Source: Gemmatimonadota bacterium
Lineage (GTDB): Bacteria; Gemmatimonadota; Gemmatimonadetes; Gemmatimonadales; Gemmatimonadaceae
Assembly: GCA_021324775.1 (NCBI GenBank)
Contig: JAJPIM010000045.1
Location: 1-64,000 of the forward strand
DNA length: 64,000 bases
Direction of reading: 5' to 3'
Numbering within the stretch: position 1 is the stretch's first letter; each line of letters opens with the position of its first letter. The position numbers were made by a program, and so were the translations under genes. Of this stretch, positions 11,939-30,919 are shown in pieces. Below the pieces are notes generated by a model. The model did no database searches and was not told the DNA's origin. It saw nothing but the letters and a program-made list of their open reading frames with translations.

Positions 11939-11979
11939 GCCCTGTCCGTTGCGGCATCGCCCGCCCAACTTTCTCCCCC

Positions 11980-14334
11980 ATGGCCAAACCCAAAGTCAAC
12001 GAACGCGAAAACCAGCCCTCCTATCGTGCGGCCGCGGTGGCGGCCGGGCTGGTTTTCATCCTGTACGTGATCACCCTCGCGCCGTCCACCGCAATGTGGG
12101 ACACGAGCGAGTACATCTCCGCGGCGTACGTGCTGGGTATTCCCCATCCGCCCGGCAATCCGCTGTTCGTCCTGCTGGGACACGTCGTGTCGCTGCTGCC
12201 CATCGCGCCGAGCGTCGCTCAGCGGATCAACCTGATGGCGGCGTTCTGCAGCGCGGCGTCGGCCGGGATGTGGTTCCTGATCACCGAGCGCGTGCTGGAG
12301 GGGTGGCTTCCGGCGGTGTGGCAGCGGATGGTCGGCGCCTCGCTCGCCGTGCTCGTGGGCTCGACGGCGTTCACCGTCTGGAACCAGTCCGTCGTGAACG
12401 AGAAGGTCTACACCGTGTCACTGTTGTTTTTCGCGGTCGTCGCGTGGCTCACGGTCCTCTGGTGCGACGACACTGATGGCCCCAAAGCCGATCGCCTGCT
12501 CATCCTGATCGCGTACCTGATCGGGCTGGGATACGCGAACCATCCAGCCGGGTTCCTGGTGGCACCGGCCGTCGGCGTGGCGGTGCTGGCGCGCCGGTGG
12601 CGGACGATCCTGCGCTGGCGGCTCGTTCTCGCCTGTGTGGGCGCCCTCGGGCTGGGCCTCACGCCGTTCATCTATGAGCCGCTTCGTGCGGCGCACTTCC
12701 CCGCGATCAACGAAGGGGAGCCCACGGCGTGCCAGACGACGTTCCACGTGTCGTGCACTCTCGACAAGCTGACGTACAGCCGGCTGATGGACAACATCAA
12801 CCGCGTGCAGTACGGGAAGCCCGATGTGACAGACCGGCAGGCTCCGTTCGGCGCCCAGATCGGGATGTACTGGCTGTATTTCAGATGGCAGTGGCTGCGC
12901 GATCCGCAAGGCGTACACCCGACGCTGCAGAACGTGCTGGCAGCCGTCTTCTTCATCCTCGGGCTCTTCGGCGGGTACGCCCACTGGCGATACGACCGAC
13001 GAAGTTTCTGGTTCTTCGGCCCGCTGATCTTCACGGTCACGCTGGGACTCATCTACTACCTGAACTTCAAGTACGGCTACTCGGAATCGACGGAGCTGCA
13101 GGACGTCGCGCGCGAAGTCCGCGACCGTGACTACTTCTACCTGTGGAGCTTCTCGGCGTGGAGCGTGTGGGTCGCGCTCGGGATGGTGTACCTTTGGGAA
13201 GCGATGGCGGCAATTCTTGGCACCGAGAGCACCGGCAACGTCCGGGACCTCGGGGAGCACCCCACGAAGTCGGGCTGGGCCTTCACCTCGCCGATTCTCG
13301 CGCTGGCGTTCGTGCCGCTGTTCGTGAACTGGACGTCGGCGTCACGCGCGCACCAGACCGACACCCGCGACTTCGCCAAGGATCTTCTCGACTCGGTCGA
13401 GCCGTACGGGGTGCTGGTGACGGTCGGCGACAACGACACCTTCCCGCTCTGGTACGCGCAGGAAGTCGAGGCGATCAGAAAGGACGTCGTGGTCGCCAAT
13501 ACGTCGCTCCTCAATACCGACTGGTACACGCGGCAGATGCTGCGGCGTCCGGCGTACGACTACGACTCGCTGGCGGGTCCAGCCGTGTACCGGGGGCATG
13601 CGTGGAAGAAGCCCACCGCTCCCGTGATGCAGATGACGCTCGCGGAAGCGGATGCCGTGCCGCTCACGTACGAACTGGCCGGCCCTCAGGTCATACGGAA
13701 GCCCGGCACCGATCTCGTGGCGACGGTCGACCCGAAGAACCTCGCGCACGGCGTGCTGGAACGCGCCGACGTGTTCGTGCTGCACCTCATTCTCGACAAC
13801 AACGGCCGGTCGGTGTATCTGAGCAGCACGTCCGGCAACTACGGCCAACAGCTCGGCGTCGGCCAGTATCTGCTCACGCAGGGGTTGGCACGCAAAGTTC
13901 TCACGTCGGTGCCGGTCGCCACCAAGGATACGATCGACCTCGCCGGCGAGGGGTGGGTGGATCTCAAGCGGTCGATGGCGCTGTGGGATTCCTTCGAAGC
14001 GCCCGGCGCCTTCATTCGCCGCGGGCAATGGGTGGACAAAGCGTCAGTGAACATCCCCGCTCTCTACGTGATGAGCGGCTATTTTCTGGCCGAAGCGCTA
14101 GGCCAGGCCGGAGACAAGCCGCAGGCGGATTCGGTGCTGCGGAAGGCCAGTGAGGTGGCGCAGGCGTCGTCGCTCGGCGATCTGTTCCGCCCTCAGCTCC
14201 CCCAGATGCAAGCGCTGCCGCCGTCAGAATCGGGTGACGCGCCGCGGGTCGCGGTGCCGCTACCGGGGCCCGCGCAGCCCACCGCCCCACCCACGGCCAA
14301 GCCCGCCACCCCTCCGCGACCCCCCACCCGATAG
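11980..14334 (+). CDS. DUF2723 membrane protein, O-mannosyltransferase-like
   Basis: A 784-residue polytopic membrane protein. The N-terminal DUF2723 region has TAMWDTSEYISAAYVLGIPH followed by PPGNPLF; the acidic loop after the first membrane helix is the usual catalytic site in GT-C glycosyltransferases. About ten hydrophobic helices occupy residues 20-450. A large soluble C-terminal region follows, with VTVGDNDTFPLWYAQEVEAI, and a Pro-rich tail. DUF2723 is related to protein O-mannosyltransferases and eukaryotic TMEM260; the sugar and acceptor here are unknown. It starts 41 bases after purH and is followed six bases later by the DUF4337 gene. Confidence 0.85.
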   Translation: MAKPKVNERENQPSYRAAAVAAGLVFILYVITLAPSTAMWDTSEYISAAYVLGIPHPPGNPLFVLLGHVVSLLPIAPSVAQRINLMAAFCSAASAGMWFLITERVLEGWLPAVWQRMVGASLAVLVGSTAFTVWNQSVVNEKVYTVSLLFFAVVAWLTVLWCDDTDGPKADRLLILIAYLIGLGYANHPAGFLVAPAVGVAVLARRWRTILRWRLVLACVGALGLGLTPFIYEPLRAAHFPAINEGEPTACQTTFHVSCTLDKLTYSRLMDNINRVQYGKPDVTDRQAPFGAQIGMYWLYFRWQWLRDPQGVHPTLQNVLAAVFFILGLFGGYAHWRYDRRSFWFFGPLIFTVTLGLIYYLNFKYGYSESTELQDVAREVRDRDYFYLWSFSAWSVWVALGMVYLWEAMAAILGTESTGNVRDLGEHPTKSGWAFTSPILALAFVPLFVNWTSASRAHQTDTRDFAKDLLDSVEPYGVLVTVGDNDTFPLWYAQEVEAIRKDVVVANTSLLNTDWYTRQMLRRPAYDYDSLAGPAVYRGHAWKKPTAPVMQMTLAEADAVPLTYELAGPQVIRKPGTDLVATVDPKNLAHGVLERADVFVLHLILDNNGRSVYLSSTSGNYGQQLGVGQYLLTQGLARKVLTSVPVATKDTIDLAGEGWVDLKRSMALWDSFEAPGAFIRRGQWVDKASVNIPALYVMSGYFLAEALGQAGDKPQADSVLRKASEVAQASSLGDLFRPQLPQMQALPPSESGDAPRVAVPLPGPAQPTAPPTAKPATPPRPPTR

Positions 14335-14340
14335 GGGACC

Positions 14341-14922
14341 ATGCCGGAAGAGATCGAAGTCGACACCGATAAGCTGCGCGAGCAGATCGACGAGGAGATC
14401 GACAAGGAAGGCGGGAGGTTCATCCGGATGATCGCGCTGACGACGGCGATCCTGGCCGCGCTCGCCGCGATCGCATCGCTTCGGGCTGGCGCGACGGTGA
14501 ACGAAGCGCTGGCGCTCAAGACGGAGGCGACGCAGATCCAGGCGCGGGCATCAGATCAGTGGGCATACTATCAGGCCAAGGGGATCAAGGGCGCAGTTGC
14601 CGCGGCGACGGTTTCCGTCTGGCGCGCCGCCGGCAAGACTCCGCCGCCCGAGACGGAGGCGCTGGTGGAGCGATACGCCACCGAGCAGAAGGCGATCGCG
14701 GATTCCGCGCGAGCCAAGGAGGCCGAGCGCGATGCGCGGACCGAAGAGGCGGAGCACCTGATGCACCAGCACCACGGCTATGCGTACGCGGTCGCGTTTT
14801 TTCAGATCGCGATCGCGCTCGGCGCGGTCGCGGCGCTCACCCGGTCCCGGCCCGTATACGCGCTCTCGCTCCTGAGCGGTGCGGGCGGCCTTGTCATGTT
14901 CGTGCTGCGACTGCTGGGCTGA
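14341..14922 (+). CDS. DUF4337 membrane protein
   Basis: A 193-residue protein of the DUF4337 family. It has a charged N-terminal helix (residues 1-27), a first membrane helix (about 28-48), a soluble alpha-helical middle with WAYYQAKGIKGAV and an acidic coiled stretch, and two C-terminal membrane helices (about 145-190). Function is unknown in the family. It begins seven bases after the DUF2723 stop and is surely co-transcribed, so a supporting role for that glycosyltransferase is possible. It converges with the kinase gene on the other strand, with about 50 bases between stops and no clear terminator. Confidence 0.8.
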   Translation: MPEEIEVDTDKLREQIDEEIDKEGGRFIRMIALTTAILAALAAIASLRAGATVNEALALKTEATQIQARASDQWAYYQAKGIKGAVAAATVSVWRAAGKTPPPETEALVERYATEQKAIADSARAKEAERDARTEEAEHLMHQHHGYAYAVAFFQIAIALGAVAALTRSRPVYALSLLSGAGGLVMFVLRLLG

Positions 14923-14971
14923 GCAACCCTCGCCGGTGGCCCTCGCCGGCGGCTCGTGGCGGCACCACGGG

Positions 14972-17221
14972 TCAGCGGAGACCGATCCGATTCACCAGAT
15001 CCGCATACCGGGGATCGCCACGGAGCGGTTCGTACCCGGGATCGCGGTGGAGGTACAGCAGACCTGCCGAGCGGGCCTGATAGGCGCGTTCGAGCGAGGC
15101 GAACGCCTGATCGAGATGGCCGGCGGCCGCGTAACCCATCGCGATAATCTCGGCGCGCAGGTATTGCCGGCGCGACTCGTCTTCGAGACGCGCGAGAATC
15201 GCATCCGCCTCATCCTTCTGGCCGAGGGCGGCGAGTGCGCGGACGATCATCGCGTCCCATGACCGCGGCGCGCGTTCGAGGGACTGGGCGCGCCGATACC
15301 ACGAGAGCGCCCCCTCGGCGTCGCCCTTGGCCAGCAGCGCCGCCGCAATGTAGTGCTGCGCGCGATGGCAGATCTCGTCCATGTCCATCGTACGTTCGCC
15401 TTGCGCGATGGCGGCGTCGTAGTCACCGTCGTACAGAAGGAACCGGGCCAGCCATTCGCTGTAGTGCACGGACAGCGGATCGAGGACGAGCGCCTGGCGC
15501 ATCGTGTCGACCGCATCTCCGAGGCGCCCCACGCAGGGCAGCATCGTGCCTCGTACGTAATGGGCCTCCGCGTAGTTCGGGCTCAGCTCCGCCGCCCGTG
15601 CCAGCTCTGCCTCCGCATCGGCGAACTTCCACTCATGCCAGCCCAACACCTTGCCGAGCGACGTCATCGCTTCGGCGAGGTTCGGATCACGCTGCAGCGC
15701 ACGCTCGGCCGCTCCCTTGGCCCGCGGATAGGCGTCATCGGGCGCCACCCAGTCGTCGGCCAGGTTGCACCACGCATCGGCGATGCCCGCGTATCCCCTC
15801 GCGAGCGCCGGGTCGAGCAGCAGCGCCTGTTGAAACAGGTCGAGCGAGCGGCGGAGGGCCGGCTCGGAGAGCTTGGCGAAAAAGAACCGGCCTTTGAGGT
15901 ACAGCGTGTACGCCTCGAGATTCTTCGTGGGCGCCACGACCTGCCCCTGATCGCCGCCGAGCCGCAGCTTCAGGGCATCGACGATCGCATGCGAGATCTC
16001 ATCCTGAACGGCAAAAACGTCTTCGAGTTGCCGGTCGTAGGTCTCGTTCCACAGATGATAGCCGCTCGCGACATCGATGAGCTGTGCCGTGAGCCGGATC
16101 CGGTTCCCCACCTTCCGCACACTCCCGTCGAGCACCGTGGTGACGCCCAGCTTCTCGCCGATCTGCCGCACATCCACGTCTTTTCCCTTGAAGGCGAACG
16201 AACTGGTACGGGACGCGACGTGGATCCCGGGCAGTTTGCCCAGGGCGTTGATGATCTCCTCGGTCATGCCGTCGGAGAAATATTCGTTCTCCGGGTCGGC
16301 ACTCATGTTCTTGAACGGCAGAACGCCGATCGCTGCCGGCCCGACGCTGGCTGCGTCCTTGGCGGTCCGATGCGCGCCAGTGGTGCTGGCGCGGCTGATC
16401 GCGCGCAGCGCCTCGGCGAACTCGGCGGCCGTCGTATACCGGTCCACCGGAGTCCGGGCGAGGGCACGCGACACGGCGGCATCGAGCGCCTCCGGCACAT
16501 CGCGTGTCGTGCGCACCTTGGGTATCGGAGATACGAACCGCTTGGCGATGATCGCCTGGGGCGTAACGCCGGTGAACGGCGGCTCGCCGGTGAGCATCTC
16601 GAATAGCACGCATCCCAACGAATACAGATCGCTGCGCCCGTCGGTCCCCGCCTCCCCCGCGGACTGTTCGGGACTCATGTAAGCGGGCGTGCCGACGGCA
16701 AACCCGGTCTGTGTGATCGACCGGTCACCCTGGGAAACCGCCTTGCCGATCCCGAAGTCGGCGACCATCGCGGCGCCTTCATGGAGCAGGATGTTCTCGG
16801 GTTTGATGTCGCGGTGGACGACGTTGTGCCGGTGCGCATAGTCCAGCGCCGAGGCGACCTCGCTTGTCAGGCGAAGCGCCTCAGCGAGCGAAAGCTGGCG
16901 CTCCCGGTCGAGCCGCTCCCGCAGCGAGCGCCCTTCCATGCTCGGCATCACGTAGAAGAGCAGGCCGTTCGCGTCGCCGGAGTCGAAGACGGGCAGGATA
17001 TGCGGGTGCGTCAGCCCGGCGGCCATCTTGATCTCGCGCAGGAACCGCTCGGCGCCGATCTCGGCGGCCACCTCCGGACGCAGGGCCTTGAGCGCAACCT
17101 GGCGATCATGCCGCAGGTCGTGCGCGAGAAAGACGATCGCCATGCCGCCCTGGCCTAGCTCGCGCTCCAGCCGGTACCGGCCCGCGAGGGCAGGCGCGAG
17201 GCGGTCGTGCAGTGGATCCAT
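14972..17221 (-). CDS. Ser/Thr kinase with TolB/FlgO-like and TPR regions, no membrane helix
   Basis: A 749-residue protein. The kinase domain occupies about 15-275: glycine loop LGQGGMAIVF, catalytic HRDIKPENIL, DFG in VADFGIGKAV, and activation segment GTPAYMSPEQ. Residues about 300-440 match the TolB/FlgO-like region (AIGVLPFKNMSADPENEYFS and GVTTVLDGSVRKVGNRIRLT), and TPR repeats fill the rest. Most relatives of this design have a membrane helix after the kinase domain. None is visible here, so the protein is predicted to be soluble. All catalytic residues are present. ATG at 17221 was chosen over TTG at 17230; neither has a good Shine-Dalgarno sequence. Confidence 0.88.
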   Translation of the reverse strand: MDPLHDRLAPALAGRYRLERELGQGGMAIVFLAHDLRHDRQVALKALRPEVAAEIGAERFLREIKMAAGLTHPHILPVFDSGDANGLLFYVMPSMEGRSLRERLDRERQLSLAEALRLTSEVASALDYAHRHNVVHRDIKPENILLHEGAAMVADFGIGKAVSQGDRSITQTGFAVGTPAYMSPEQSAGEAGTDGRSDLYSLGCVLFEMLTGEPPFTGVTPQAIIAKRFVSPIPKVRTTRDVPEALDAAVSRALARTPVDRYTTAAEFAEALRAISRASTTGAHRTAKDAASVGPAAIGVLPFKNMSADPENEYFSDGMTEEIINALGKLPGIHVASRTSSFAFKGKDVDVRQIGEKLGVTTVLDGSVRKVGNRIRLTAQLIDVASGYHLWNETYDRQLEDVFAVQDEISHAIVDALKLRLGGDQGQVVAPTKNLEAYTLYLKGRFFFAKLSEPALRRSLDLFQQALLLDPALARGYAGIADAWCNLADDWVAPDDAYPRAKGAAERALQRDPNLAEAMTSLGKVLGWHEWKFADAEAELARAAELSPNYAEAHYVRGTMLPCVGRLGDAVDTMRQALVLDPLSVHYSEWLARFLLYDGDYDAAIAQGERTMDMDEICHRAQHYIAAALLAKGDAEGALSWYRRAQSLERAPRSWDAMIVRALAALGQKDEADAILARLEDESRRQYLRAEIIAMGYAAAGHLDQAFASLERAYQARSAGLLYLHRDPGYEPLRGDPRYADLVNRIGLR

Positions 17222-17368
17222 GAGAGCCAAGATGCGGCCAGGGGATCGGAGGCGCGAGTGCGTGGCGCTACCGCCACACGGTTGACAGCCGGGATGCTGC
17301 CTCGCATCTGCCCGTCAAGCGCTGGCGGATCGGATGATGCGTGCTCCCTTATCGGACCCGGCGAACTA

Positions 17369-18119: not shown

Positions 18120-18164
18120 TTCCCCTATAGTCAGTGAAGCCGTCTGAGCCGTGTAAGTCGTTGT

Positions 18165-18249
<85 letters not shown>

Positions 18250-18344
18250 TTGACGCGGCCACCTGCCGCCTACCGCGAGCCGGTGGCGTGTGTCCGCGTC
18301 GGCGTACCGCACCCGCGCTTTCGCGGGGCGCCCGGGCTCCGTCG

Positions 18345-19049
18345 TCATTCGGTCCGGCGCCATACAGCCAGGATGCTCTTGCCGGCGCGGTAGCCGAAGA
18401 CGGGGTCCAGCGCTTTCGACGCGGGCACGATGTACGTGTCCCAAAACGCTATCTGGCGCTTAGTCGGCAGGCGCTGCCTCAGTACGAGTTTGTTGGCGCC
18501 CGACGCCAGCAATCCCACCGAGTCGAGGTACCACATTCTCTCGAGACGCGCCGACGGCGGCGAGCACGCGGCCAGACTGGACCGGTCGTAGCGCCGATAG
18601 TGTCCGAGCGCCGCATCGAATGGGTTGAACAACGCCTGGTGTGCGGGAGCGAGAACGATCAGGGTGCCGCCAGCCCGCAACAGCGCGGCCGCTCGCCGCA
18701 GTTCCCCCTTGTCATCCTCGATATGCTCGAGCACATCGGCGTAGAGCACCGCATCGAATGACTCGAGGGCGAGGTCAGCGACCGTCCCGGCGCTCACCGT
18801 GATGTTCGGCTGTCCGCTCGCGGCCTGCCGCAACTGGGCGGCTAGCGCCTCATCAGGTTCGAGACAGTGCAACGAGCGCACAGCCGGATTGTTCAGGTAG
18901 CCGATGTTCGCCCCGAGCCCGGCGCCCACTTCCAGCACGTCGCCCGCCAGATAGGGCCGCACGAGAGTGGCCCAATAGCGCTTCCAGTTCCGCGCCTCGA
19001 GGAAGATGTCGAGCTCTCGCCCGACATACTCGAACGTGGCACCGGTCAC
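18345..19049 (-). CDS. Class I SAM-dependent methyltransferase
   Basis: A 234-residue methyltransferase. The SAM-binding motif I is VLEVGAGLGANIGYL near residue 39, with the acidic residue of motif II in HCLEPDE and motif IV in AVLYADVLEHIEDD. The C-terminus has FNPFDAALGHYRRYDRSSL, typical of methyltransferases found in glycan clusters. GTG at 19049 overlaps the upstream glycosyltransferase stop as GTGA, so the genes are coupled; the longer frame upstream is a shadow. Likely substrates are a polyprenyl-linked sugar or a surface glycan, inferred from the neighbours. Confidence 0.85.
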   Translation of the reverse strand: MTGATFEYVGRELDIFLEARNWKRYWATLVRPYLAGDVLEVGAGLGANIGYLNNPAVRSLHCLEPDEALAAQLRQAASGQPNITVSAGTVADLALESFDAVLYADVLEHIEDDKGELRRAAALLRAGGTLIVLAPAHQALFNPFDAALGHYRRYDRSSLAACSPPSARLERMWYLDSVGLLASGANKLVLRQRLPTKRQIAFWDTYIVPASKALDPVFGYRAGKSILAVWRRTE

Positions 19050-20107
19050 GACGACGTTTGCCCTTGCACCTGCCCTTGCACGTGCCCCGGTGCCTCGGTC
19101 GCACCGGACGGACCACCCGGCATCCGCTCGACCGCGCCAACGAATACCCGGTAGTCGCGGATCGGAACGAAGGTCATGTTCTGCCGCGTGTTGATCATCA
19201 GGAAGACGAGACTGAACGACATCGAGACAAACTGGAGCATCAGGAGCAGTCCCAACCCTCCCGCGACCGTCGCCCAGCCGGGTATCGCCAGGTGCGTGCC
19301 GAGCCGAATGCCGACGACGGCCGCGAGCGCCAGCGCCAGCACGATCATGCAGGCGATGCTCGCCATGAGAATGCGCGTCGCCACCACGTCGTAGAACGTG
19401 CTGATCCCGGACAGGCCGTGCACGACCAACGCCACGAGATCCATGTGCGAGGTGCCACCCAGCCGCCGCCCCCGGTCGACAGACACCCGTACAAACGGAA
19501 GCTTCGACTTGTGAATCGCGCCGGCGTAGTGGTTCCACAACTCCGACATGGTCACCAGACGCGTGACGGCCGATCGCGGGACGATGCTGAAGTTGCCCTC
19601 ACGGACCGCGACCCCGGTGAGGATCCGGTGGAGCAGCCGATAGCCCCAATACCCGGCGCGAAAGCCCGCGCCGGCGAAGCGCCGCTGGCGGGCGGCGAAG
19701 ATGATCGACCCGGATGTGTCGCGGAAGCCACCGATCAGCCGGACCACATCTTCCGCCCGATCCTCGCCGTCGGCATCCATCACCAGCACCGCATCGCACT
19801 CGATCTCGCTCTGGATCAGGCACAGGCCCATTGCGATGGCCCGCTGGTGCCCCATGTTGCGCCGCAGTTGCAGTACATCGATCCGGGTGATGTGCGCGGG
19901 CGCGAACGGCGCCCACCCCTCGAGCGGCTCGGGACTGCCGTCGTCCACCAGGAGGATGCGGATCGCGACGCCGTCGAGGTCCGCAGCCCGCTCATCGATC
20001 TGCCGGCAGAGCCGTGACGCGGCATCCCAATCCCGGAACACCGGCATCGTGATGACGACGCGCAACTCCTCGTTCGGGTGCCCAATCACCATGCGGTCTC
20101 CGGCCAT
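19046..20107 (-). CDS. GT2 glycosyltransferase, polyprenyl-phosphate hexose synthase-like
   Basis: A 353-residue protein of the DPM1/GtrB type. The GT-A domain carries VVITMPVFRDWDAASRL, LLVDDGSPEP with the nucleotide-binding Asp pair, LRRNMGHQRAIAMGL, and the DXD-like VMDADGEDRAEDV. Two C-terminal membrane helices lie at about 240-265 and 280-310. This group transfers a sugar from a nucleotide donor to polyprenyl phosphate at the inner membrane. The tail has an imperfect VQGQVQGQ repeat. ATG at 20107 starts one base after the upstream stop; GTG at 20119 would overlap it. It is the middle gene of a three-gene coupled cassette. Confidence 0.88.
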   Translation of the reverse strand: MAGDRMVIGHPNEELRVVITMPVFRDWDAASRLCRQIDERAADLDGVAIRILLVDDGSPEPLEGWAPFAPAHITRIDVLQLRRNMGHQRAIAMGLCLIQSEIECDAVLVMDADGEDRAEDVVRLIGGFRDTSGSIIFAARQRRFAGAGFRAGYWGYRLLHRILTGVAVREGNFSIVPRSAVTRLVTMSELWNHYAGAIHKSKLPFVRVSVDRGRRLGGTSHMDLVALVVHGLSGISTFYDVVATRILMASIACMIVLALALAAVVGIRLGTHLAIPGWATVAGGLGLLLMLQFVSMSFSLVFLMINTRQNMTFVPIRDYRVFVGAVERMPGGPSGATEAPGHVQGQVQGQTSS

Positions 20108-20108
20108 G

Positions 20109-22793
20109 CTACTCAACACTGATCGTCAGTTGGCGAATCTTGATGAGCGCCGGCGTATAGGCACCGCCCCGGACGACCGGTGGCGCCGGGATGAATTGGA
20201 GAACTTGCGGGGCGCGGTCCTCCCGGAACCGGAGCGTATCCGTCGTGACGTCCGGCCCCAGCGACAACACACGCGACTGATCGCCGAACGTGATCGTGAC
20301 GGGGGTCCGGCGGAGGGAATCCGGCGCCGATGCCTCGACGACCATCGTGACGTTTCCCATAAAGGGACGGCTGAAATACATGGATGCTCTCGACGGTCCC
20401 CCCGGCGGGCGGGCGACGAGCCGGCCGCCTGTGTCCGGGCGTTGAAAGCCAGCCATGGAGTCCACGACGCCGGCGGGATCGCCCTTCCGCAAATCGACAT
20501 GCAACACCGTGGAGGGCGGCACCGGCTCCTGCTGCATCAGCAGCCGCGTGAGCGGTGCGACGGCTGTCGTCGGACCGGGACGCGCCACGCAGACGTTGGC
20601 CTCCTCGATCGTGCCGCACACGACCCGCCCATGCGCCCACCATTCGATGGCCTCCCGATACGTTGCGCTTGGAATGTATATCGTCGCCGGATCCAGCAAA
20701 CCGCGCGCGAGACTGTCGAGCATCGGAAAGCACAACGGCCCGAGGTCGTCGATGCGCGCCGGGTTGGCGCTGTTGAACGACATGCGCTGCGTCGCGGCCA
20801 GCACTCCAAAGCGAATCTCGTAGTCGTAGGGGCGATCGTAACGCCGGCACGCGGTGCGGTTCGCTATGATCGGCGGCACCAGCCGCAGTGACCGGAATGA
20901 ATGGCCGATCCCGTCCCACGCATGCGACTCCAGACGGGGCCACTGCCACGTATAGTCCCGCTGCACCGTGGCCCGGAGAGTGCGCATGTCGGCCACCTGC
21001 AGGCCAAGGCCCGCCGCCAGCAGGGCGTAGGCGACCGCAGGACGAGTGAATCGCGTAATCGCCGCCACGGTCAGCGCCATCACGAGGTAGTACGCCGGCC
21101 ACGCGAAGCGTCCCGACCCGCGGAACCACGACGTGAACCGTGGCAGATGAGCATAGAACGGCACCGTGAGCACCTCGTGTCCCGCGAACCGGACCGGCGT
21201 CGCCAGCGCGTACGCGAACATCAGGGCCGCCGCCAGGATCCCGGGCCACAACGGCGGCCAACCGGCCCGCGTCCGCGCGCGGCGCGGGGCATGTTGGCTG
21301 GCCGCGCCGCCACGGCGCGACCTGATGGCCGCCACGACAGCGACCGCGATGGCAATGGGGATGAGCGCGATCAGCCCGAGTCCCAGATAGAAGAAGTTCT
21401 CGTATCCGCGCTGGATCGCCTGGATGGGTTTGAGATAGGGCGAGAAACCGGCGGGGTTGACGAACGCCAGCAGGTCGGCGGAAAACTGCCCGAACCCCGG
21501 CTCGCCGTGGCTGGTGAGCACGAAGAATCCGAAGACCCAGAAGACCCCGAGGACCGTGGCGAGGCCAACGACGGCGTGCCAGACGGCGGTCCACCATGTG
21601 ATCACCCGGTCTACACACACAGCGCGCACGTACGCGGCGCCGCAGGCGACGCCGACCATGAGGCCGAGGTAGGCGTACGTCGGGATGGTCACCGCCAGCA
21701 GGAGCAACCATGGAACCAGAAAGCGCCACGACGCGCCGGCCGGGGGCCGGCGGAGGTAGAGCCACCACGCCGCAAGCAGCTCCCAATGCGCGGCCAAGCC
21801 CACGTGCTCGAACCGGTGCAGCATGGCCGGACTCGCCGCGAAGAACGCGGCCCCGACGAGACTCAGACCGCGGTTGGCACGGAGCGCCCGCAGCACGAGG
21901 TAGCCAAAGACGCCCTGCAACATGTAGCCAGCCAGGAGAAACAGCCCGCTGTACTGCCACGGGGTCTGGACCCATCCGAAGAACAGCTTCGCCGGCACCG
22001 CGGCGATGGGCAGGGCGTCGGAGTACCCGACGGTGATCACGAGCGGCGCGATCATCGTGTGCAGAATCCCGAACGGCAACGTCCAGGGCTCGTTGCGCTC
22101 GAACAACCAGCCCGAAAGCATCGCCGCGCGGTCAGCCTTCATCAGCCAGTGGATGTTCGTCGGGTCGGCCACCACGAGCGGCACCTGATAGATGAACACC
22201 ACGAGCCCGATCAAGGCGGGCAGGACGAGGCGCTTGGCCGTCTCGCCGGAGTCGCCAGCCAGGATGCGCTCGATCACCGCGGTCTTGGCCTCGGCGTAGT
22301 GTTGCATCGACCTCCATGGACGTGACGCCAGCTCGCGCTTGGTCGCGGCGTAGGCATCCCGGTCCCGCGCGCTGCGCCGTAAGCGATCCCGGAAATCGAG
22401 CATCCGTCCAATCTCCGCGGAGTCCGCCGGATAGATGTGGACGTGCACATCGGCATCAGGTGTCCGAAGCATGCGGTGCTCGTGGAAGGCAGGTTCGCGC
22501 ACGCGCAGCAGGTACCCGGCGCGCTCGAGGTCCGGGAGGTAGGTATCCTCGCGGCTCGCGTCCTCCACGGCGACCAGGATGTCGATGATCGCCTTCGCGA
22601 CCAGGCCCGGCACTGCGGTCGAACCGATGTGCTCCACGCGGAGGGCACGCGTGCCAAGCGCCGCGCGAATCGTCGCCGCCTCACGCTCGTACCGCGGCGC
22701 CCAGTTCGGGTCGTGCGGGGCGAGAACGATCCGGCCGGCCTCCATGCCGCCAATCAACACTTCACCAAGGTATGCCTCGAGTTCGTCAGCCAC
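20109..22793 (-). CDS. GrpB-domain / polytopic membrane glycosyltransferase-like fusion
   Basis: An 894-residue fused protein. Residues about 20-185 are a GrpB (UPF0157) nucleotidyltransferase-fold domain with RVEHIGSTAVPGLVAKAIID, HEHRMLRTPDADVHVHIYP and FRDRLR. Then, with no break, comes a membrane protein of about ten helices (about 198-600) and a soluble beta-rich C-terminal domain. The membrane part resembles DUF6311-like and GT-C glycosyltransferases, including MKADRAAMLSGWLFERNEPW, but that family name is uncertain. GTG at 22793 is best supported by GAGGAGG eight bases upstream; GTG 22823 and ATG 22814 are alternatives. The function of the joined enzyme is unknown; the neighbours suggest glycan transfer. 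Confidence 0.78.
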   Translation of the reverse strand: MADELEAYLGEVLIGGMEAGRIVLAPHDPNWAPRYEREAATIRAALGTRALRVEHIGSTAVPGLVAKAIIDILVAVEDASREDTYLPDLERAGYLLRVREPAFHEHRMLRTPDADVHVHIYPADSAEIGRMLDFRDRLRRSARDRDAYAATKRELASRPWRSMQHYAEAKTAVIERILAGDSGETAKRLVLPALIGLVVFIYQVPLVVADPTNIHWLMKADRAAMLSGWLFERNEPWTLPFGILHTMIAPLVITVGYSDALPIAAVPAKLFFGWVQTPWQYSGLFLLAGYMLQGVFGYLVLRALRANRGLSLVGAAFFAASPAMLHRFEHVGLAAHWELLAAWWLYLRRPPAGASWRFLVPWLLLLAVTIPTYAYLGLMVGVACGAAYVRAVCVDRVITWWTAVWHAVVGLATVLGVFWVFGFFVLTSHGEPGFGQFSADLLAFVNPAGFSPYLKPIQAIQRGYENFFYLGLGLIALIPIAIAVAVVAAIRSRRGGAASQHAPRRARTRAGWPPLWPGILAAALMFAYALATPVRFAGHEVLTVPFYAHLPRFTSWFRGSGRFAWPAYYLVMALTVAAITRFTRPAVAYALLAAGLGLQVADMRTLRATVQRDYTWQWPRLESHAWDGIGHSFRSLRLVPPIIANRTACRRYDRPYDYEIRFGVLAATQRMSFNSANPARIDDLGPLCFPMLDSLARGLLDPATIYIPSATYREAIEWWAHGRVVCGTIEEANVCVARPGPTTAVAPLTRLLMQQEPVPPSTVLHVDLRKGDPAGVVDSMAGFQRPDTGGRLVARPPGGPSRASMYFSRPFMGNVTMVVEASAPDSLRRTPVTITFGDQSRVLSLGPDVTTDTLRFREDRAPQVLQFIPAPPVVRGGAYTPALIKIRQLTISVE

Positions 22794-22942
22794 CCTTACT
22801 GCCTCCTCAGGCATGCCCTGCACGGTTCCGAGCGGGCCGCCGTGGCGGCGGCGACCAGTGAGAACGTGATCCGCATCACGATGCGGCCGAACGCCGACAA
22901 ATGTGCGTCAAATCACTGCAGGCGATTTGTCCCGAAGGCATT

Positions 22943-22972
22943 TTGACATCACGAAATCGCACGATCTATTAC
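22943..22972 (+). promoter_or_regulatory. Consensus-like sigma-70 promoter
   Basis: TTGACA at 22943-22948, an 18-base spacer and TATTAC at 22967-22972. This is the closest match to a housekeeping promoter that I found in the window. It points toward the small gene starting at 23033, leaving a leader of about 54 bases. Confidence 0.55.
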
Positions 22973-23032
22973 ACCGCACGCCGGCCCGCCACTCACCCGC
23001 AGCTACGACCGCGTCACGGACGCAAGCAGATC

Positions 23033-23326
23033 ATGACCACGTTTTCCATCGTCTACACCATCGGTACCTGCCGAACCGAAGTCCACCTCGGCTCCTGTGG
23101 ACGCATTCGCTCAGGTCGTGGCCTGCTGCGGTACGACGTCCCTGCCACGTCTCCCCACGGCGCGATCGCGCGATACGTCGTCGACCAGCACCTCATCGTC
23201 GATGGGATGCCCGAGCCGGTGATGTGCGCGTGCACCAGGGACGCGAGCGCCCCGGTTTCGGTCGCCAGCCCGCGAGAACTCGAGGTCGAGGTCTATCCAA
23301 CGTTCGGAGCCGACCTCGGAGTCTGA
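23033..23326 (+). CDS. Hypothetical small protein
   Basis: A 97-residue predicted protein that I do not recognise. It has four Cys residues (C13, C22 and a CAC pair near 73-75), alternating hydrophobic strands such as IARYVVDQHLIVDGMP, and no signal peptide or membrane helix. Third codon positions are strongly G/C, as in its neighbours. A consensus-like promoter lies 60 bases upstream, but the Shine-Dalgarno sequence is weak. In-frame upstream starts at 22901 would place the start before the promoter, so ATG at 23033 is preferred. It is followed by a gap of about 210 bases with no gene. Confidence 0.45.
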   Translation: MTTFSIVYTIGTCRTEVHLGSCGRIRSGRGLLRYDVPATSPHGAIARYVVDQHLIVDGMPEPVMCACTRDASAPVSVASPRELEVEVYPTFGADLGV

Positions 23327-23535
23327 GACCAACGTCCAACCGAAGGCCATATAAAGGCTCCCTCCGTCCCCGGCGCAGTGTTCGGGGTGAGAGATCACGG
23401 CCCAAGCCACGAGGGCCCGGACGGGGCCCCACCCGCCGATCCTTCGGATTCGAACTTAACCCAGCGCGAAGTCCCGTGTGTTTGCGCGCCGCGAACGAAA
23501 GATTACGTTGCGCGTAAGACTACCGAGGCCGGGTC

Positions 23536-24186
23536 GTGTCGGACATCGAGGTACGCAGGTCCCCCGAAACTTCCCTGGGCGAGCGGATTCTGATCGCCCG
23601 GTTCGAGGCGTCCGCCCTTCGGAGTGAGAAGCTGTCGCAGGAGCGCCTCGGCGTCCTCGTCTCCCGGGAGTTGTCGAAAGGCGCTCCGGTGACGGCCGCC
23701 ACCGTGTCGAGGTGGGAGTCCGGCGATACGGTCCCGTCGGTGACGACCATCGCCGCCATCGCGCGCGTCTGTGGAGTGGATCCCGGGTGGCTGGGATTCG
23801 GCGCGGAGTCTGCGGCGCCCAGTCCGAGGCGTGGGAAGCCTCTACTCGCCGGCCAGAGTGTCGCAGCCGAGGAACCGCGCCGCGAGGAACCGCGCCGCGA
23901 GGAACCGGCGCAGGATCCGCAGTCGTGGCTCAGGCGCCAGCAGCGCATCTATCAGACCCGCCTGGCGAAGCTCAATGCGGAGCTCAAGGATGCCTATCGC
24001 GCCTCCCCGAGTGTCGCGCGCGCGAGCAAGATCCGTCATCTCACCGCCGAGCTGCGCCACCTCGATCAGTGGCTCGATCGCGCCAAGGGGGCTGCCGACG
24101 CGTCGGCGCGCCTGGCGCGCGACGGCGTCCCGGCGCGTTCGCCGCGCGAGCTGATGCTCGAAAGCACGGGGGAGGCCACCGAGTAG
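23536..24186 (+). CDS. XRE-family HTH regulator
   Basis: A 216-residue DNA-binding protein. A helix-turn-helix of the Cro/CI type spans about residues 12-85, with LSQERLGVLVSRE, VTAATVSRWESGDTVPSVTT and IARVCGVDPGWLGFG. Residues about 112-128 hold an imperfect EEPRRE repeat encoded by a short tandem DNA repeat. The C-terminal half is a charged helix (WLRRQQRIYQTRLAKLNAEL) that may dimerise. The target is unknown. The start is GTG at 23536 with GAGG upstream. A stop-spanning hairpin follows. It is a single gene with no obvious partner. Confidence 0.82.
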   Translation: MSDIEVRRSPETSLGERILIARFEASALRSEKLSQERLGVLVSRELSKGAPVTAATVSRWESGDTVPSVTTIAAIARVCGVDPGWLGFGAESAAPSPRRGKPLLAGQSVAAEEPRREEPRREEPAQDPQSWLRRQQRIYQTRLAKLNAELKDAYRASPSVARASKIRHLTAELRHLDQWLDRAKGAADASARLARDGVPARSPRELMLESTGEATE

Positions 24187-24202
24187 TTCGGCAGCCTCCC
24201 CC
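24168..24202 (+). terminator. Hairpin spanning the XRE stop codon
   Basis: GGGGGAGGC pairs perfectly with GCCTCCCCC across a 17-base loop that contains the TAG stop. There is no T-run after it, so it may be an mRNA-stabilising or Rho-linked structure and not an intrinsic terminator. Confidence 0.4.
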
Positions 24203-24290
24203 GCCCTGCAACTGCACCGTCTCGCCTCGCCGCAGCCGGGGATGACTTGCCTCCCCGGCCACAGCCCGACGATGTCCTAGGAACTGCTGA

Positions 24291-26030
24291 TCACGGCGAC
24301 GCGACTGGCGGAATGAACGGCGTCACCGAGGAGACACGCAGATCGACGTACGATTCGTCCCCGCGGTCGCGAGCCCGAACGGCGATCACGTTGGGTGTGT
24401 TGCCCGTGTGGAACTTGGTCACGGGGAACGTAATCACATAGCTGTCCTGCGTTGCGCAGCCTTCGTGAATCAGGAACTGGCTTCCGTCATAGAAGGCGTT
24501 GGTGCCTGCAGTGACGGTCCCCGAATCCGTGACATCCTGCCCGTTCAGGAAGATCTGGATGTCGTTGTCGATGGCGACGCCGATCTGGACGTTGGGTGTC
24601 CAATCGGTTGGAATGAAGAACGTCGCCTGCAACAGGAAGATCGAGGATGGATCGTTATTGAGGTTGCCCGTGCTGGCCGGCACCGGGAAGAACGTCGGCC
24701 AGACGAGGTGGAGGTTGGGGAGATTGGAGAGCGCACACCCGAATGCGTTCCCGTCGGCGGCGGTGCCGCTCCCGAATGGTGCCGTGCCGAATGGCGAGTT
24801 GCTCACCACCCATCCGGGCGAGCCGGCCGGCACGAACGCCGGGTTGGTGCCGTACCCCGCAATATCACCCGTCATGGGCAACGGGGTCCCGATGAAGGCT
24901 GGCGCGTGGTACGCCCACATGCCGTTCTGGTAAGGGATGATGTCGTCCACGTCCACGAGCCCGAACGGACTCGCCGAGTGCGCCGTACCGCTGATGCTGG
25001 TTTTGGTCCCGCTGGCGAAGGCGTCGGTGACGAAGAGTCCCTCGGCGGCCGACGCAAGCGATTCCACCGCGCCACGCACATCACCGCGGCGGGCCAGCTC
25101 GAACAGGCTGGCGCCAGATGCCGGGCGCATGCCGATCTGCGTATCGCACTCGAGACCGAGGTTGCCCGCTGGCTTGGGCAGGATCTGCGCGGTCGTGACG
25201 CCGTTCATGGTGTTGGTGACGTTGTGCGCCAGGAACAGCTGCGACACCGGAACGTTGATGTTCGTGGTCGTCGCGCAGACTTCGTACGTGAACGGATTGG
25301 GCGTCTGCGTCGAGTCCACCGACGGAGTGAAGGTGTACTGGTAATTCGGCGGGAACTGCGCCAGCGGTGTGCACAGGACGCCGCTATAGGGCGCACACGG
25401 CGGTCCCGTGATCGGGGTGATCGTCACCAGCGTCGCGGTCTTGAGATTCCCCTGCGGGATCTGCACCCCGGCGTTCTGATCGCCGGTGGCGACCGTCGTC
25501 GTCGGCGCGTTCGCCTGCACGACCTGCGCGGCGCCCGTCGAGCCGGCGCCCAGCGAGGCAGTGGTCAGTGATTGCGGGAGTCCAGCACTGCAGAGAAACG
25601 CGTTGAGGACGGTGACCGTGAGCTGCGCCGTCGCCGCACTCTGGCCGCCGATCAGATCACCCGCCTGAAAGAGCTTGAGCGTCGTGTCGACAAGCTGCAA
25701 GGCGATCTGCTGGCCAAGAGCCGTATCAGGCTTGACGCCCTTGATGGGCCCCACCGCAACCAGCTCGGCTGCATACAGCAGCGCGGCTTTGCCGGCCAGA
25801 TACATCGGCTTCGTGTTGGGATACAGGGCATTGATGTCCTTGACCACGGTGGTTGCCGACAAACACCCGTTGCCCGCGCTCCGATCCGACATCTGCGCAT
25901 TGAGGTCGCGCTGGGCGGCGCTCGGCGACAATGGACTCTGGCTGGAATCCGAGCACGCGGCGATCGCGATGGCGACCATCGTAATCGCTGCCGCACCGAG
26001 GATTCCACCGAGTTTCCTTGCTGGTTGCAT
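24291..26030 (-). CDS. Large hypothetical lipoprotein
   Basis: A 579-residue exported lipoprotein with signal MVAIAIAACS (lipobox AIAAC) at residues about 14-24. The early region has Ser/Gln-rich linkers and a helical part. The middle contains ITPITGPPCAPYSG, typical of beta-sandwich surface proteins. The C-terminus (about 480-579) looks like a galactose-binding or choice-of-anchor fold: AIDNDIQIFLNGQDVTDSG and NVIAVRARDRGDESYVDLRV. No catalytic motif was found. It is probably an outer-surface protein. ATG at 26030 follows a GGGGGAGT Shine-Dalgarno; the longer frame upstream lacks a signal peptide. It lies downstream of a kinase gene on the same strand, 138 bases away. Confidence 0.7.
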   Translation of the reverse strand: MQPARKLGGILGAAAITMVAIAIAACSDSSQSPLSPSAAQRDLNAQMSDRSAGNGCLSATTVVKDINALYPNTKPMYLAGKAALLYAAELVAVGPIKGVKPDTALGQQIALQLVDTTLKLFQAGDLIGGQSAATAQLTVTVLNAFLCSAGLPQSLTTASLGAGSTGAAQVVQANAPTTTVATGDQNAGVQIPQGNLKTATLVTITPITGPPCAPYSGVLCTPLAQFPPNYQYTFTPSVDSTQTPNPFTYEVCATTTNINVPVSQLFLAHNVTNTMNGVTTAQILPKPAGNLGLECDTQIGMRPASGASLFELARRGDVRGAVESLASAAEGLFVTDAFASGTKTSISGTAHSASPFGLVDVDDIIPYQNGMWAYHAPAFIGTPLPMTGDIAGYGTNPAFVPAGSPGWVVSNSPFGTAPFGSGTAADGNAFGCALSNLPNLHLVWPTFFPVPASTGNLNNDPSSIFLLQATFFIPTDWTPNVQIGVAIDNDIQIFLNGQDVTDSGTVTAGTNAFYDGSQFLIHEGCATQDSYVITFPVTKFHTGNTPNVIAVRARDRGDESYVDLRVSSVTPFIPPVASP

Positions 26031-26167
26031 GTGTCTTACTCCCCCTGTCCATCGTTGATGGTTTGCGGGCCATGCCACTGCGCAGCGCGCCCCGCGCTCG
26101 CCAGTCGTGCATCCCCCGTTTCCGTCCCGGACGTCTCCCAACGCGATCTCTCGCATCATCGCAATCG

Positions 26168-28717
26168 TTATCGGGCTCGCCCTCCCGACAGGCCGCTTTG
26201 GACGAGGGCCTTGAAATGCGGGTCGTCGCGTAGCCCGCGGAAGCGCCAGTCGTGGTTGTCGCTCAGCGACGAGTCGGCGCTCGGATTCGCGCTGATCCAG
26301 ACCTTCAGGTCCTGTACGGCCGCTCCGTTGTCCCCGACGAGGGTCCAGGCATATGCCTTGTCGAGCGAGATATCGCGGGTCGCATCGATGGCAGCGGGCA
26401 CCGACAGCCGCTGCAGCACGTGCCGCGCACTGTCCTTGAGCCCCGCCCGGGCCAGCGGCGCCGCCACCAGCGCCTGCGCCAGCGCCTGCCGGAAGGGGCG
26501 CCCCGCCTCGGGGGGCATGTTTCCGAGGCTGTCCGCGAGGCGCCAGGCGCGGGTCACGTCGCTACTGACCACCGGCGTGCCCATGAGCCGGAGCCGGCAT
26601 TCCGCGAAGCGCGGATTTGCCGGGAACCGTTCGACGCCGACATCGCACCAGTGCATGGCCTCCGGCATCTGCTCCAGGTCATAGGATGTGCCGAACAGCC
26701 GCCACAGCACGACATCGGCGTTACTCAGGTACGCGTCCTCCTCGTAGGCCCGGCGGGCCGCCAGCTTGGCGCCCGTCTCGTCGCCCTGGTTGGCGTACAG
26801 ATGTCCGAGCATGGCCCACGCCGACGCGTCGGCAGGATCGATGCGCGTTGCCGCCTCGAGATCCGCCTGGGCCGCCCGCAGGGTGTCACCATCCTGCCTG
26901 GTGTCGGGCAGCAGGTCGAGGAGATGCCTCCAGTAGCGGAGTGTCCCGCGCATCTCCAGCGCGTAGGCGTCCTGCGGCGAACGCTGGAGCGCCCGCGCGG
27001 CGTGCACCGTGCCGCTGTCGATGAACGCCGACGCGCGCACGGGCGCATCGATGAAGAAGCGCACGGTCCGGTAGGCGATCTGTGCCTCCCGCACGTCGGG
27101 CTCGGCCCAGTTCTCGTCGAGCGCGGCCGCCTGTTCGAGCAACGAATCGGCGCCCCGGAAAGCGGCCAGCATGCCCGCGGTGTCGTTCGCGGCCATGAGA
27201 CGCTCACCGGCTTGATGGCGCTGCTCGCCGCGTTGCACGAGCACCCACGCATCGGGATTCTGCGTGCCGTCGCGCGTCGCGCGGAGCCGTACTTCTTCTC
27301 CCAGCCGGCGCCGAATCATGCGCGCCACGTTCGCAACCAGCGAGTCCTGCAGGACGAGAACCTTGGCGACCGGCTGGTCGAAGGCTCCTCGGTCGAAATC
27401 CGCGCCGCTGGCGGCATCGACGAGCCGGACATCGACGTGCACCTTGCCACCCGACTGTTCGACGCTCCCGCGCACGAGCGTGCCGGCCTTGAGGGCCCGG
27501 CCGATGCTGTCCGTGCTCACGTTCGTGCCCTTGTACGGCTGGACACCTCCGCGCGAGATCACTTCGAGATTCTGCACCTCCGAGAGTTGCCCGATCAATC
27601 CCTCGGTGAGACCGTCGGCGACGTAGCCCAGCGAGTGACCCGGTGACAGGTCGTCGAAGTACAGCACGGCGAGCGTCCGGGCGTCGGGGCCCGTCGCTGG
27701 CCTCACGTTGCTGTGGTGCAGGTAGCGCCATCCGGCGGCTCCCGCCGCCGCGATCAGGACTGCGGCGACGAGCGAGCCCCCGATGACCCGGCGCGTGCGG
27801 GGGCGCTGCGCCGCTGGAGCAGCAATGACGCCAGTCGGCACCTGCGTGGTCGCCGTCCACCGAGACTGCGTCAGTTCGCGCTCCGGATGGCGCAGCGCCT
27901 CGGCGAATTCGTGCGCGGTCTGGAAGCGGTCCGCGGGCACTTTGGCCAGCGCCCGCATCACGACCGCCTCGAGCTGCGGCGAGACGGTCGGCCGGACTAT
28001 GGTCAGCGACGGCACCTGCCCCATCGCGTGGCGCGCGATGACCGCGTGCGCCGAGCCGCCACCGAACGGCGGCTGGCCGGCCAGCATCTCGTACAGGACG
28101 CACCCCAGGCTGTAGACGTCGGACCGCCGGTCGAGATTGCGGTCCGCCATGCCCTGTTCGGGGCTCATGTAGTGCGGCGTGCCCAGCGTGATGCCCGTCT
28201 GCGTCAGCTTCTCCTCGCCCGCGGCCGCCGCCGCACGGGCGATCCCGAAGTCCACGACCAGTGCGTGCCCGTCATCGATCAGGATGTTCTCGGGCTTGAT
28301 GTCGCGGTGCACGACGCCCTGCTCGTGGGCATACTCGAGCGCGTCGGCTGCTTCGGCCGCGAACAGCACGGCGTCGTCGATGCTGAGGGGACCCGCACGG
28401 TCGAGCCGCGCCCGCAGCGACTCGCCGGCGATGAACGGCATGACGTAATACAACTGGCCGTCGTACTCGCCGGAGTCGTAGAGCGGAAGGATCCGCGGAT
28501 GGCTGAACTTGGACGCGACGGCGATCTCGCGCAGGAACCGTTGCGAACCCAGCGCCATGCCGACGTCCGGGAGGAGCACCTTGACCGCCACATCGCGGGC
28601 GTCGCGCTGGTCACGCGCGAGATAGACCGTGGCCATTCCGCCGCGGCCGATCTCTCGGGTGATGAGGTAGCGGCCGTTGAGCAAGACGTTCAACAGTTGC
28701 CCGACCGCGTCAGCCAC
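26168..28717 (-). CDS. Membrane Ser/Thr kinase with TolB/FlgO-like and TPR regions
   Basis: An 849-residue protein. The kinase domain is at about 17-280: REIGRGGMATVYLAR, the Lys of VAVKVLL, HRDIKPENIL, VVDFGIARA and GTPHYMSPEQ. A single membrane helix lies at about 312-330 (GGSLVAAVLIAAAGAAGWRY). The outside region begins with the TolB/FlgO-like LAVLYFDDLSPGHSLGYVA, followed by TPR-type repeats to the end. The design suggests a receptor kinase sensing from the periplasm and signalling in the cytoplasm. The GTG start has GGAGGAGG upstream. It shares the design of the soluble kinase at 14972-17221 but keeps the membrane helix. Confidence 0.9.
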   Translation of the reverse strand: MADAVGQLLNVLLNGRYLITREIGRGGMATVYLARDQRDARDVAVKVLLPDVGMALGSQRFLREIAVASKFSHPRILPLYDSGEYDGQLYYVMPFIAGESLRARLDRAGPLSIDDAVLFAAEAADALEYAHEQGVVHRDIKPENILIDDGHALVVDFGIARAAAAAGEEKLTQTGITLGTPHYMSPEQGMADRNLDRRSDVYSLGCVLYEMLAGQPPFGGGSAHAVIARHAMGQVPSLTIVRPTVSPQLEAVVMRALAKVPADRFQTAHEFAEALRHPERELTQSRWTATTQVPTGVIAAPAAQRPRTRRVIGGSLVAAVLIAAAGAAGWRYLHHSNVRPATGPDARTLAVLYFDDLSPGHSLGYVADGLTEGLIGQLSEVQNLEVISRGGVQPYKGTNVSTDSIGRALKAGTLVRGSVEQSGGKVHVDVRLVDAASGADFDRGAFDQPVAKVLVLQDSLVANVARMIRRRLGEEVRLRATRDGTQNPDAWVLVQRGEQRHQAGERLMAANDTAGMLAAFRGADSLLEQAAALDENWAEPDVREAQIAYRTVRFFIDAPVRASAFIDSGTVHAARALQRSPQDAYALEMRGTLRYWRHLLDLLPDTRQDGDTLRAAQADLEAATRIDPADASAWAMLGHLYANQGDETGAKLAARRAYEEDAYLSNADVVLWRLFGTSYDLEQMPEAMHWCDVGVERFPANPRFAECRLRLMGTPVVSSDVTRAWRLADSLGNMPPEAGRPFRQALAQALVAAPLARAGLKDSARHVLQRLSVPAAIDATRDISLDKAYAWTLVGDNGAAVQDLKVWISANPSADSSLSDNHDWRFRGLRDDPHFKALVQSGLSGGRAR

Positions 28718-28882
28718 GAATGCCTCCTCCAGCCTTACGACGTACTTGGTGAACGGTGCTGAATCTGCCGGTGGCGCGGCCCAAAGGCCACTCCGAAATG
28801 GGACCGGTTATCACTTTTGCGTGACGGACGGCGGGACCCCGGTGCGGGGATCACGAACGACTCGCACGTTTCATGACTGCGG

Positions 28883-29557
28883 CTACCACGTCTTCCTGAC
28901 GACGGCAAGGTGCTTGTCATTGAAGGCTATCGTATTCAGCACCGTAGACCCGCCACCCCAGACCGCCGTATAGGCCGAGAGGGGTCGCGGCTTCTCGATC
29001 CGATTGAGACGCAGCCGCGTCGCCAGCATCTTGTTGGTCGCCGGGTCCCAATAGGTCACGAGGAATGTCCCCCCCGGGGCGATGGCCTGCCAGACATTCG
29101 CCATGGCGCGCGAAAATGCCGCATCGTCGGTGATGTGCTGCGTCACATCGACCATCAGCGCCAGATCGTACGCGGCCGGTGACAGCGAGATCTCTCCGGC
29201 ATCGCCCTGCACGAACTCGAACTCCGGATAGCGCTGGCGCAGGGTCGTCACGGAAACGGGCGTGATGTCGTTGCCGGTGTAGTGCCGGACACCCCGGCCC
29301 TTGAGGTACTCGGTCCAGTATCCCACGCCGCACCCGATTTCGAGAACGCGGGTGGCCGGTCCGGCGGCAATGCCGAAGCGATCGAGCTGGCCGGCAATCA
29401 GGTCCCGCTTCGCTTCGTACATCCGGCGGTTGTCATCCTCACTCAGCCGGTAATGGCCAACGCCGCGCAGATCGAACGACTCCGATAGCACGTCGTTCCA
29501 GAACTCCCGCGGGCGATAGCGGAACAGCATCTGGGCGTAGATTTTGAGCCGGCTCAT
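28883..29557 (-). CDS. Class I SAM-dependent methyltransferase
   Basis: A 224-residue methyltransferase. Motif I is TRVLEIGCGVGYWTEYL, with GNDITPVSV for the acidic SAM contact and DLALMVDVTQHITDD for motif IV. The N-terminus has KIYAQMLFRYRPREFWNDVL. The substrate is unknown. ATG at 29557 gives the more natural N-terminus; ATG at 29587 adds ten hydrophobic residues (MRRVVVLYVL) that could be a second-choice start. It is transcribed away from the UBP-finger gene. Nothing in the immediate context identifies its target. Confidence 0.82.
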   Translation of the reverse strand: MSRLKIYAQMLFRYRPREFWNDVLSESFDLRGVGHYRLSEDDNRRMYEAKRDLIAGQLDRFGIAAGPATRVLEIGCGVGYWTEYLKGRGVRHYTGNDITPVSVTTLRQRYPEFEFVQGDAGEISLSPAAYDLALMVDVTQHITDDAAFSRAMANVWQAIAPGGTFLVTYWDPATNKMLATRLRLNRIEKPRPLSAYTAVWGGGSTVLNTIAFNDKHLAVVRKTW

Positions 29558-29736
29558 GAGTACATAAAGTACCACTACGCGTCTCATCCGCCCACACAGA
29601 AACGAGTAAATTCGGGCCCGGGGGCGCTCCCCCCTCCCCGGGTCCGCGATGCCAGGTCGCTGGCCGCGACCTTAGCCGCAACCCCTAACCCGCTGATCGG
29701 ACCGCGGACCGGCCGCCTCCCACCCGAGGATCCGCC

Positions 29737-30000
29737 ATGCAGACCTGCACCCACCTCGATCAGATCCGGCCTGTGACGCCGCACACGCGCGGCTGCGAGG
29801 AATGCCTCAAGACCGGCGACACCTGGGTCCATCTGCGACTCTGCCTGGAGTGCGGCAAGGTTGGCTGCTGCGACTCCTCCAAGAACCGCCACGCGACCAA
29901 GCACTTCCACCAGAGCGGCCATCCGATCATGCGGTCCATCGAGCCCGGAGAACGCTGGGGCTGGTGCTATGTCGACGCAGTGGAGGTGGATCTTCCCTGA
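29737..30000 (+). CDS. UBP-type zinc finger protein
   Basis: An 87-residue protein made almost entirely of one Zf-UBP domain. Ligand-like residues are C4, H6, C20, C23, C36, C39, C44, C45, H52, H56, H58 and H62, in the order expected for the domain. In eukaryotes this finger binds the C-terminal diglycine tail of free ubiquitin; bacterial single-domain versions exist with unknown role. The start at 29737 has GAGG upstream. The gene stands between a methyltransferase on the other strand and an ECF sigma factor about 330 bases downstream. No ubiquitin-like protein was seen nearby. Confidence 0.85.
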   Translation: MQTCTHLDQIRPVTPHTRGCEECLKTGDTWVHLRLCLECGKVGCCDSSKNRHATKHFHQSGHPIMRSIEPGERWGWCYVDAVEVDLP

Positions 30001-30330
30001 AGGCGGCGATTCTCCTGGCCGCCGGCCGCGCGCCGGAATCCCATCGGTCAAATCGCCTGTTGCGCGAACGCCACGGCGTCTGCGGGAGCACGCAATCGCC
30101 AGCGCCGGCGGGGCCCTCTGCGCGAGCCACGTCCCCCTGGCCGACGGCCCGCTCCGCGGCGAGAGGCGACGGGCAAGCCGCAGCGCGCAGAACGACGGAC
30201 GGGAGAACGCCGAGTCGCAATATCCGGGTCGTGGACCCATTTTTCTTGGACGCGGGCCGGCGGTACGCGGGCTCGCCCCGGGACGGTACCGCCGGTGCGG
30301 ACCCGCGAATCATCTCATCGGAGACCCGAC

Positions 30331-30909
30331 GTGGAGCCGGAGATCGACACGCTGATCCGACGCGCCGACCAGGCCGATCCAGCAGCGGCCGATGAGCTCT
30401 TCGCCCTCCTGTACCATGAGCTCCACCGGCTCGCGGAGATCAACCTCCGTCGCGCCGGGTCCGCGTATACGCTCGGAACCACCACACTGCTGCACGAGGC
30501 GTATCTGAACATCGCCGGGCGCCCCGATGTGGCGTTCGCCGACCGGTCACGCTTCCTCGCCTACGCCTCACGCGCGATGCGCGGACTGACGATCGACTAC
30601 GCGAGACGGCGCCAGGCCACGAAACGCGGGCGCGTACTGGAGATCACGCTCGCCGACGAGGTGGGTCCCACCGATGAGACCCTGCGGACCGGGGAGGAAC
30701 TGGAACGACTCGGGGACGCGCTGAATCAACTGGCGGAGTTCGAACCCTCTCTCGTCGAGCTGGTGGATCTCCACTTCTTCTCGGGGTTCTCGTTCACCGA
30801 GATCGCGACGCTGCGCGGCGTCTCCGACCGCACGGTCCAGCGGGACTGGCGCAAAGCGCGGCTCCTCTTGCAGGACGCGCTCCTGGGCGACGACACGCCC
30901 GTCTCCTGA
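30331..30909 (+). CDS. ECF sigma factor (TIGR02999-type)
   Basis: A 192-residue RNA polymerase sigma factor of the Sigma70_ECF family common in Planctomycetes, Acidobacteria and Gemmatimonadota. Region 2 has LFALLYHELHRLAEINLRRA, TLLHEAYLNI, and FLAYASRAMRGLTIDYARRR. Region 4 has LVDLHFFSGFSFTEIATLRG and then VSDRTVQRDWRKARLLL as the helix-turn-helix. GTG at 30331 is preferred because GGAG lies seven bases upstream; GTG at 30295 would add an Arg-rich leader. Members of this family are usually paired with a Ser/Thr kinase that may replace an anti-sigma factor. Here the kinase converges from the other strand with stops ten bases apart. Confidence 0.9.
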   Translation: MEPEIDTLIRRADQADPAAADELFALLYHELHRLAEINLRRAGSAYTLGTTTLLHEAYLNIAGRPDVAFADRSRFLAYASRAMRGLTIDYARRRQATKRGRVLEITLADEVGPTDETLRTGEELERLGDALNQLAEFEPSLVELVDLHFFSGFSFTEIATLRGVSDRTVQRDWRKARLLLQDALLGDDTPVS

Positions 30910-30919
30910 CCGCTCCGGG

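Follow-up and report, generated by a model that had tools for sequence, protein, structure and literature searches.

A GrpB domain joined in frame to a DUF6311 membrane protein beside a tRNA-gene slot in a Gemmatimonadota genome

The DNA analysed here, the window, is a 64,000-nucleotide stretch of a Gemmatimonadota contig (JAJPIM010000045.1). Its list of open reading frames, with their translations, includes one frame of 904 codons on the reverse strand (20109–22823) that contains, in order, a GrpB domain, a DUF6311 domain and a DUF7024-like domain. The sequence-only reading from which this work started had reported an uninterrupted frame that carries a GrpB signature into a membrane part, and so it proves: the frame is open throughout, and both domain profiles score over their cut-offs. 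We place the start at a GTG at 22823, where that reading had 22793. The GrpB domain (PF04229; residues 32–188; 22260–22730, reverse strand) matches positions 2–157 of the 159 in its profile at 157.7 bits (E 3.6e-46; curated cut-off 25.5). Its closest named relatives are 51–61% identical, and the family motif, HIGST..PGL..AK..ID, is intact in the form HIGSTAVPGL..AKAIID. A link of 11 residues separates this domain from DUF6311 (PF19830; residues 200–493; 21345–22226, reverse strand), which matches positions 7–298 of 303 at 78.9 bits (E 7.4e-22; cut-off 27). Because each profile is matched over almost its full length, the joint falls between two whole domains and inside neither; a chance open frame is no explanation for two whole domains in one frame.

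In the hydropathy profile, eight or nine membrane peaks stand out clearly from residue 193 to residue 548, and the first helix (approximately 193–222) lies directly behind the GrpB domain. The earlier estimate of about ten helices is compatible with this profile, which gives the number only approximately. The C-terminal region (residues 814–883; 20175–20384, reverse strand) matches DUF7024 (PF22895) weakly, at 20.9 bits and under the cut-off of 24.4; the orthologue in a genome of the same genus, G002, scores 25.3 and passes. The region also has a weak match to the C-terminus of OpgB.

Next to the fused gene, on the same strand and overlapping its end by 11 bases, lies a GT2 glycosyltransferase gene (PF00535 by profile match; 19046–20119) whose product has C-terminal hydrophobic segments and is probably GtrB/DPM1-like. 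Downstream, in the same direction, comes a gene for a SAM-dependent methyltransferase (PF08241 by profile match; 18345–19085; start codon provisional). Beyond it a tRNA-Ser (TGA) gene on the forward strand (18164–18250) forms, by DNA comparison with G002, the conserved edge of a variable slot. The GC content of the block, 0.67, is that of its flanks. No integrase or transposase was identified among its genes, and searches within it for promoters and terminators found none scoring above shuffled sequence. A repeat search located two copies of the 12-bp direct repeat CAGCCAGGATGC, one where the block meets GrpB (22256–22267, forward strand) and the other inside the methyltransferase gene, in its 3′ end (18365–18376, forward strand). 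In a control, only 2 of 1714 probes shared an equally long word with the far end of the block. These copies could be a recombination scar; because they were found by looking for them, they are a lead and no proof.

When compared with G002, the fused query splits at residues 191/193. The GrpB half finds its counterpart on contig C22 (69% identical) and the DUF6311 half on contig C54 (73% identical). On the kinase-gene side, C22 and the window are collinear (10036–17224, 80% identity), as they are at tRNA-Ser (98%) and, on the other side, through the GrpB region (22258–23236) and the HTH-gene side (23481–30000 and 30311–30910). The HTH regulator gene itself (23536–24186, forward strand) is 77% identical in the two genomes and is a conserved neighbour of GrpB. 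C22 is, judged by this collinearity, the orthologous locus of the window. Between tRNA-Ser and GrpB, G002 has different cargo—a DUF4160 gene and a DUF2442 gene—and its GrpB frame lacks the usual end: it continues for some 60 codons antisense to the DUF2442 gene. The slot is therefore variable, and the 3′ end of grpB is disturbed in both genomes, so that the ancestral end is not directly visible. The G002 slot (L020:7605–9114) also contains an apparent HigA-type fragment, and looks like a small hotspot of exchange next to a tRNA gene.

The DUF6311 gene of G002 begins a few tens of bases past a tRNA-Asn gene, and beyond it lie GT2 and methyltransferase genes that point the other way. The equivalent tRNA-Asn gene of the window's genome directly precedes purE-like DNA, with no DUF6311, GT2 or methyltransferase gene between. 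Compared across the two genomes, the partner genes are no more than distant relatives (25% identity for GT2, 31% for the methyltransferase) and are differently arranged, which argues against a simple hop of one intact block between sites. Independent acquisition of the same type of DUF6311 by both genomes is possible.

The joint, as delimited by DNA comparison with G002, occupies 22220–22259 (reverse strand), and its link reads AGDSGETAKRLV. Homology to the sister GrpB stops at about 22258, homology to the sister DUF6311 gene starts at about 22219, and at the junction both the GrpB stop and DUF6311's own start are absent; at most other GrpB loci examined, a stop occurs some 5–25 residues beyond the equivalent position. 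Our preferred reading, to which we give a probability of roughly 0.7, is that the fusion is real, in frame and specific to this lineage, that it arose when a gene block was inserted next to a tRNA gene, and that its membrane part is GT-C-like and its GrpB part a passenger. Because the nearest relative keeps the two genes on different contigs, the fusion is most likely an accidental junction. A block comprising the DUF6311, GT2 and methyltransferase genes would have inserted into the slot that runs from tRNA-Ser to the 3′ end of a grpB gene already present and, as the comparison with the sister genome supports, would have taken away the stop of one gene and the start of the other, leaving both in frame. 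The sequence-only reading had counted separate genes in relatives against the fusion; in G002 they are indeed separate, at two loci, which comes close to that case. If this history is right, the locus shows clearly how a multi-domain gene can be born: a block that lands next to a tRNA gene brings two complete domains into one frame, and related genomes still preserve both the unfused state and the empty site.

Does the frame yield one protein or two? DUF6311 might be made mostly from an internal start near the joint, with the full-length fusion as the minor product, an arrangement that we regard as possible although doubtful. There are two candidate starts, ATG173 (22307), with GGAGG ahead of it, and GTG183 (22277), with GAGG ahead. 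Initiation at either could yield a near-normal DUF6311 protein, and relatives of DUF6311 start a few to about 30 residues ahead of the equivalent helix. The ribosome-binding sites of both are imperfect, however: only 3 bases separate GGAGG from ATG173, and the bases of GGAGG double as GrpB codons.

The membrane part is most likely, by analogy, a GT-C-type enzyme of a GtrB-like glycan-modification system. That it is glycosyltransferase-like had been proposed from the sequence, and the profile matches and the gene neighbours of DUF6311/DUF7024 relatives bear this out. In extracytoplasmic glycosylation, a GT2 enzyme makes a polyprenyl-phosphate sugar, a flippase flips it and a GT-C enzyme, which can carry extra outer domains, transfers it; three-component systems of this kind are established (PMC11127046). 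The window resembles the GtrA/GtrB/Gtr-type systems in that a GT2 gene adjoins the gene of a polytopic membrane protein whose C-terminus bears an additional domain. The flippase of those systems is GtrA; within the block (18252–22257) no flippase or GtrA gene was seen. In such a scheme the GT2 enzyme would load a sugar onto polyprenyl phosphate in the cytosol, and DUF6311 would pass this sugar to a glycan outside the cytoplasm; the acceptor may be bound by the C-terminal domain. DUF6311 proteins with a DUF7024-like tail have the same domain order and the same GT2 and methyltransferase neighbours as the window, but elsewhere they begin at their own start codon, which here is replaced by the GrpB frame. 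One unfused example stands on a deltaproteobacterial plasmid (CP026659.1; L073:3870–8058) in the row GT2, methyltransferase, GtrA, DUF6311, and this row lends supporting evidence, again by analogy, to a glycan-modification role.

Membership of DUF6311 in the GT-C class is thus proposed by likeness to these systems. D231, an acidic residue in the first outer loop, is invariant in three DUF6311 relatives and may be catalytic; many helices and an acidic loop residue alone prove no GT-C membership. Structure prediction gave poor models, with a mean pLDDT of 42.5 for the joined protein and 38.5 for the membrane part, and a search of PDB sequences with the latter gave chance-level matches only. The literature collection searched had nothing on DUF6311, and the viral contigs searched contained no DUF6311.

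Among 395 genomes of the phylum, 60 have GrpB and two have DUF6311, both of the latter in the window's genus; the window's genome alone has the two joined. Comparison of the fused protein with some 85 thousand genomes, in a scan that detects close relatives only, returned GrpB relatives and nothing else. The sequence-only reading had looked to the same fusion, with the same joint, in several genomes as support; none was found. Nor is its suggestion of a new design supported, given this absence of recurrence in the phylum and in the scan, and the two separate genes of the sister genome: the fusion gives no ground for claiming a new enzyme design. GrpB does usually stand alone, as that reading said, although fused forms were already known. 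Free-standing GrpB proteins (PF04229; PDB 2nrk) share the full-length domain and motif with the window and end after the domain, where the window's frame has no stop. In mycobacterial CoaE-GrpB (UPF0157; PMC2765170; NF002879; PDB 6n39), GrpB is in frame with a second enzyme, as it is here, and the heads match; there it is C-terminal on a soluble kinase, whereas the window has it at the N-terminus of a membrane protein, an arrangement found once. In the mycobacterial protein, GrpB is needed to help the partner fold, and it showed none of the other activities tested (PMC2765170). An annotated GrpB/GNAT protein is a further fused case.

Two other long frames suggest that GrpB occasionally gains C-terminal partners. 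One, of 402 aa (L032:1465–2673, genome G016), is a fusion candidate that continues in frame from GrpB into a uridine-kinase/PRK-type P-loop kinase domain. In the other, of 389 aa (L030:832–2001, genome G316), a hydrophobic segment and a region resembling secreted proteins follow GrpB, and this may be a lost stop.

The fused protein would carry its GrpB head on the cytosolic side, at the inner end of helix 1. Most likely the head is a passenger there and has no part in driving the enzyme, nor any blocking effect on it. It is improbable that the whole is a selected bifunctional enzyme, with a head that either transfers a nucleotide or acts from the cytosol in some other way as a regulator of the membrane enzyme. 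The intact frame and motif, the low dN/dS of both halves against the G002 genes (near 0.19 in GrpB and near 0.21 in the membrane part) and a topology that allows a cytosolic head would all agree with such an enzyme, but the joining does not recur in the 395 genomes of the phylum or in the scan for close relatives, G002 keeps the genes apart, and the fusion is too young for selection to be judged; those ratios span, probably for the most part, time before the fusion, and so say nothing firm about present use of the head. We give very little credence to a single chain in which GrpB has become a nucleotide-dependent module on the cytosolic side, there to control or feed a glycosyltransferase that works outside the cytoplasm. 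An assembly chimera of two loci is likewise very unlikely: the joint is present in one genome only, the assembly is a draft of 46 contigs and there is a short repeat at the joint, but the contig is 371 kb long, collinearity with G002 on both sides of the block speaks against a simple artefact, block and flanks agree in composition, and the reading frame is exactly preserved.

Two serine/threonine kinase-TPR genes of related sequence flank the region, one at 14972–17230 and one at 26168–28717, and each cross-matches the G002 orthologue of the other at about 67% DNA identity.
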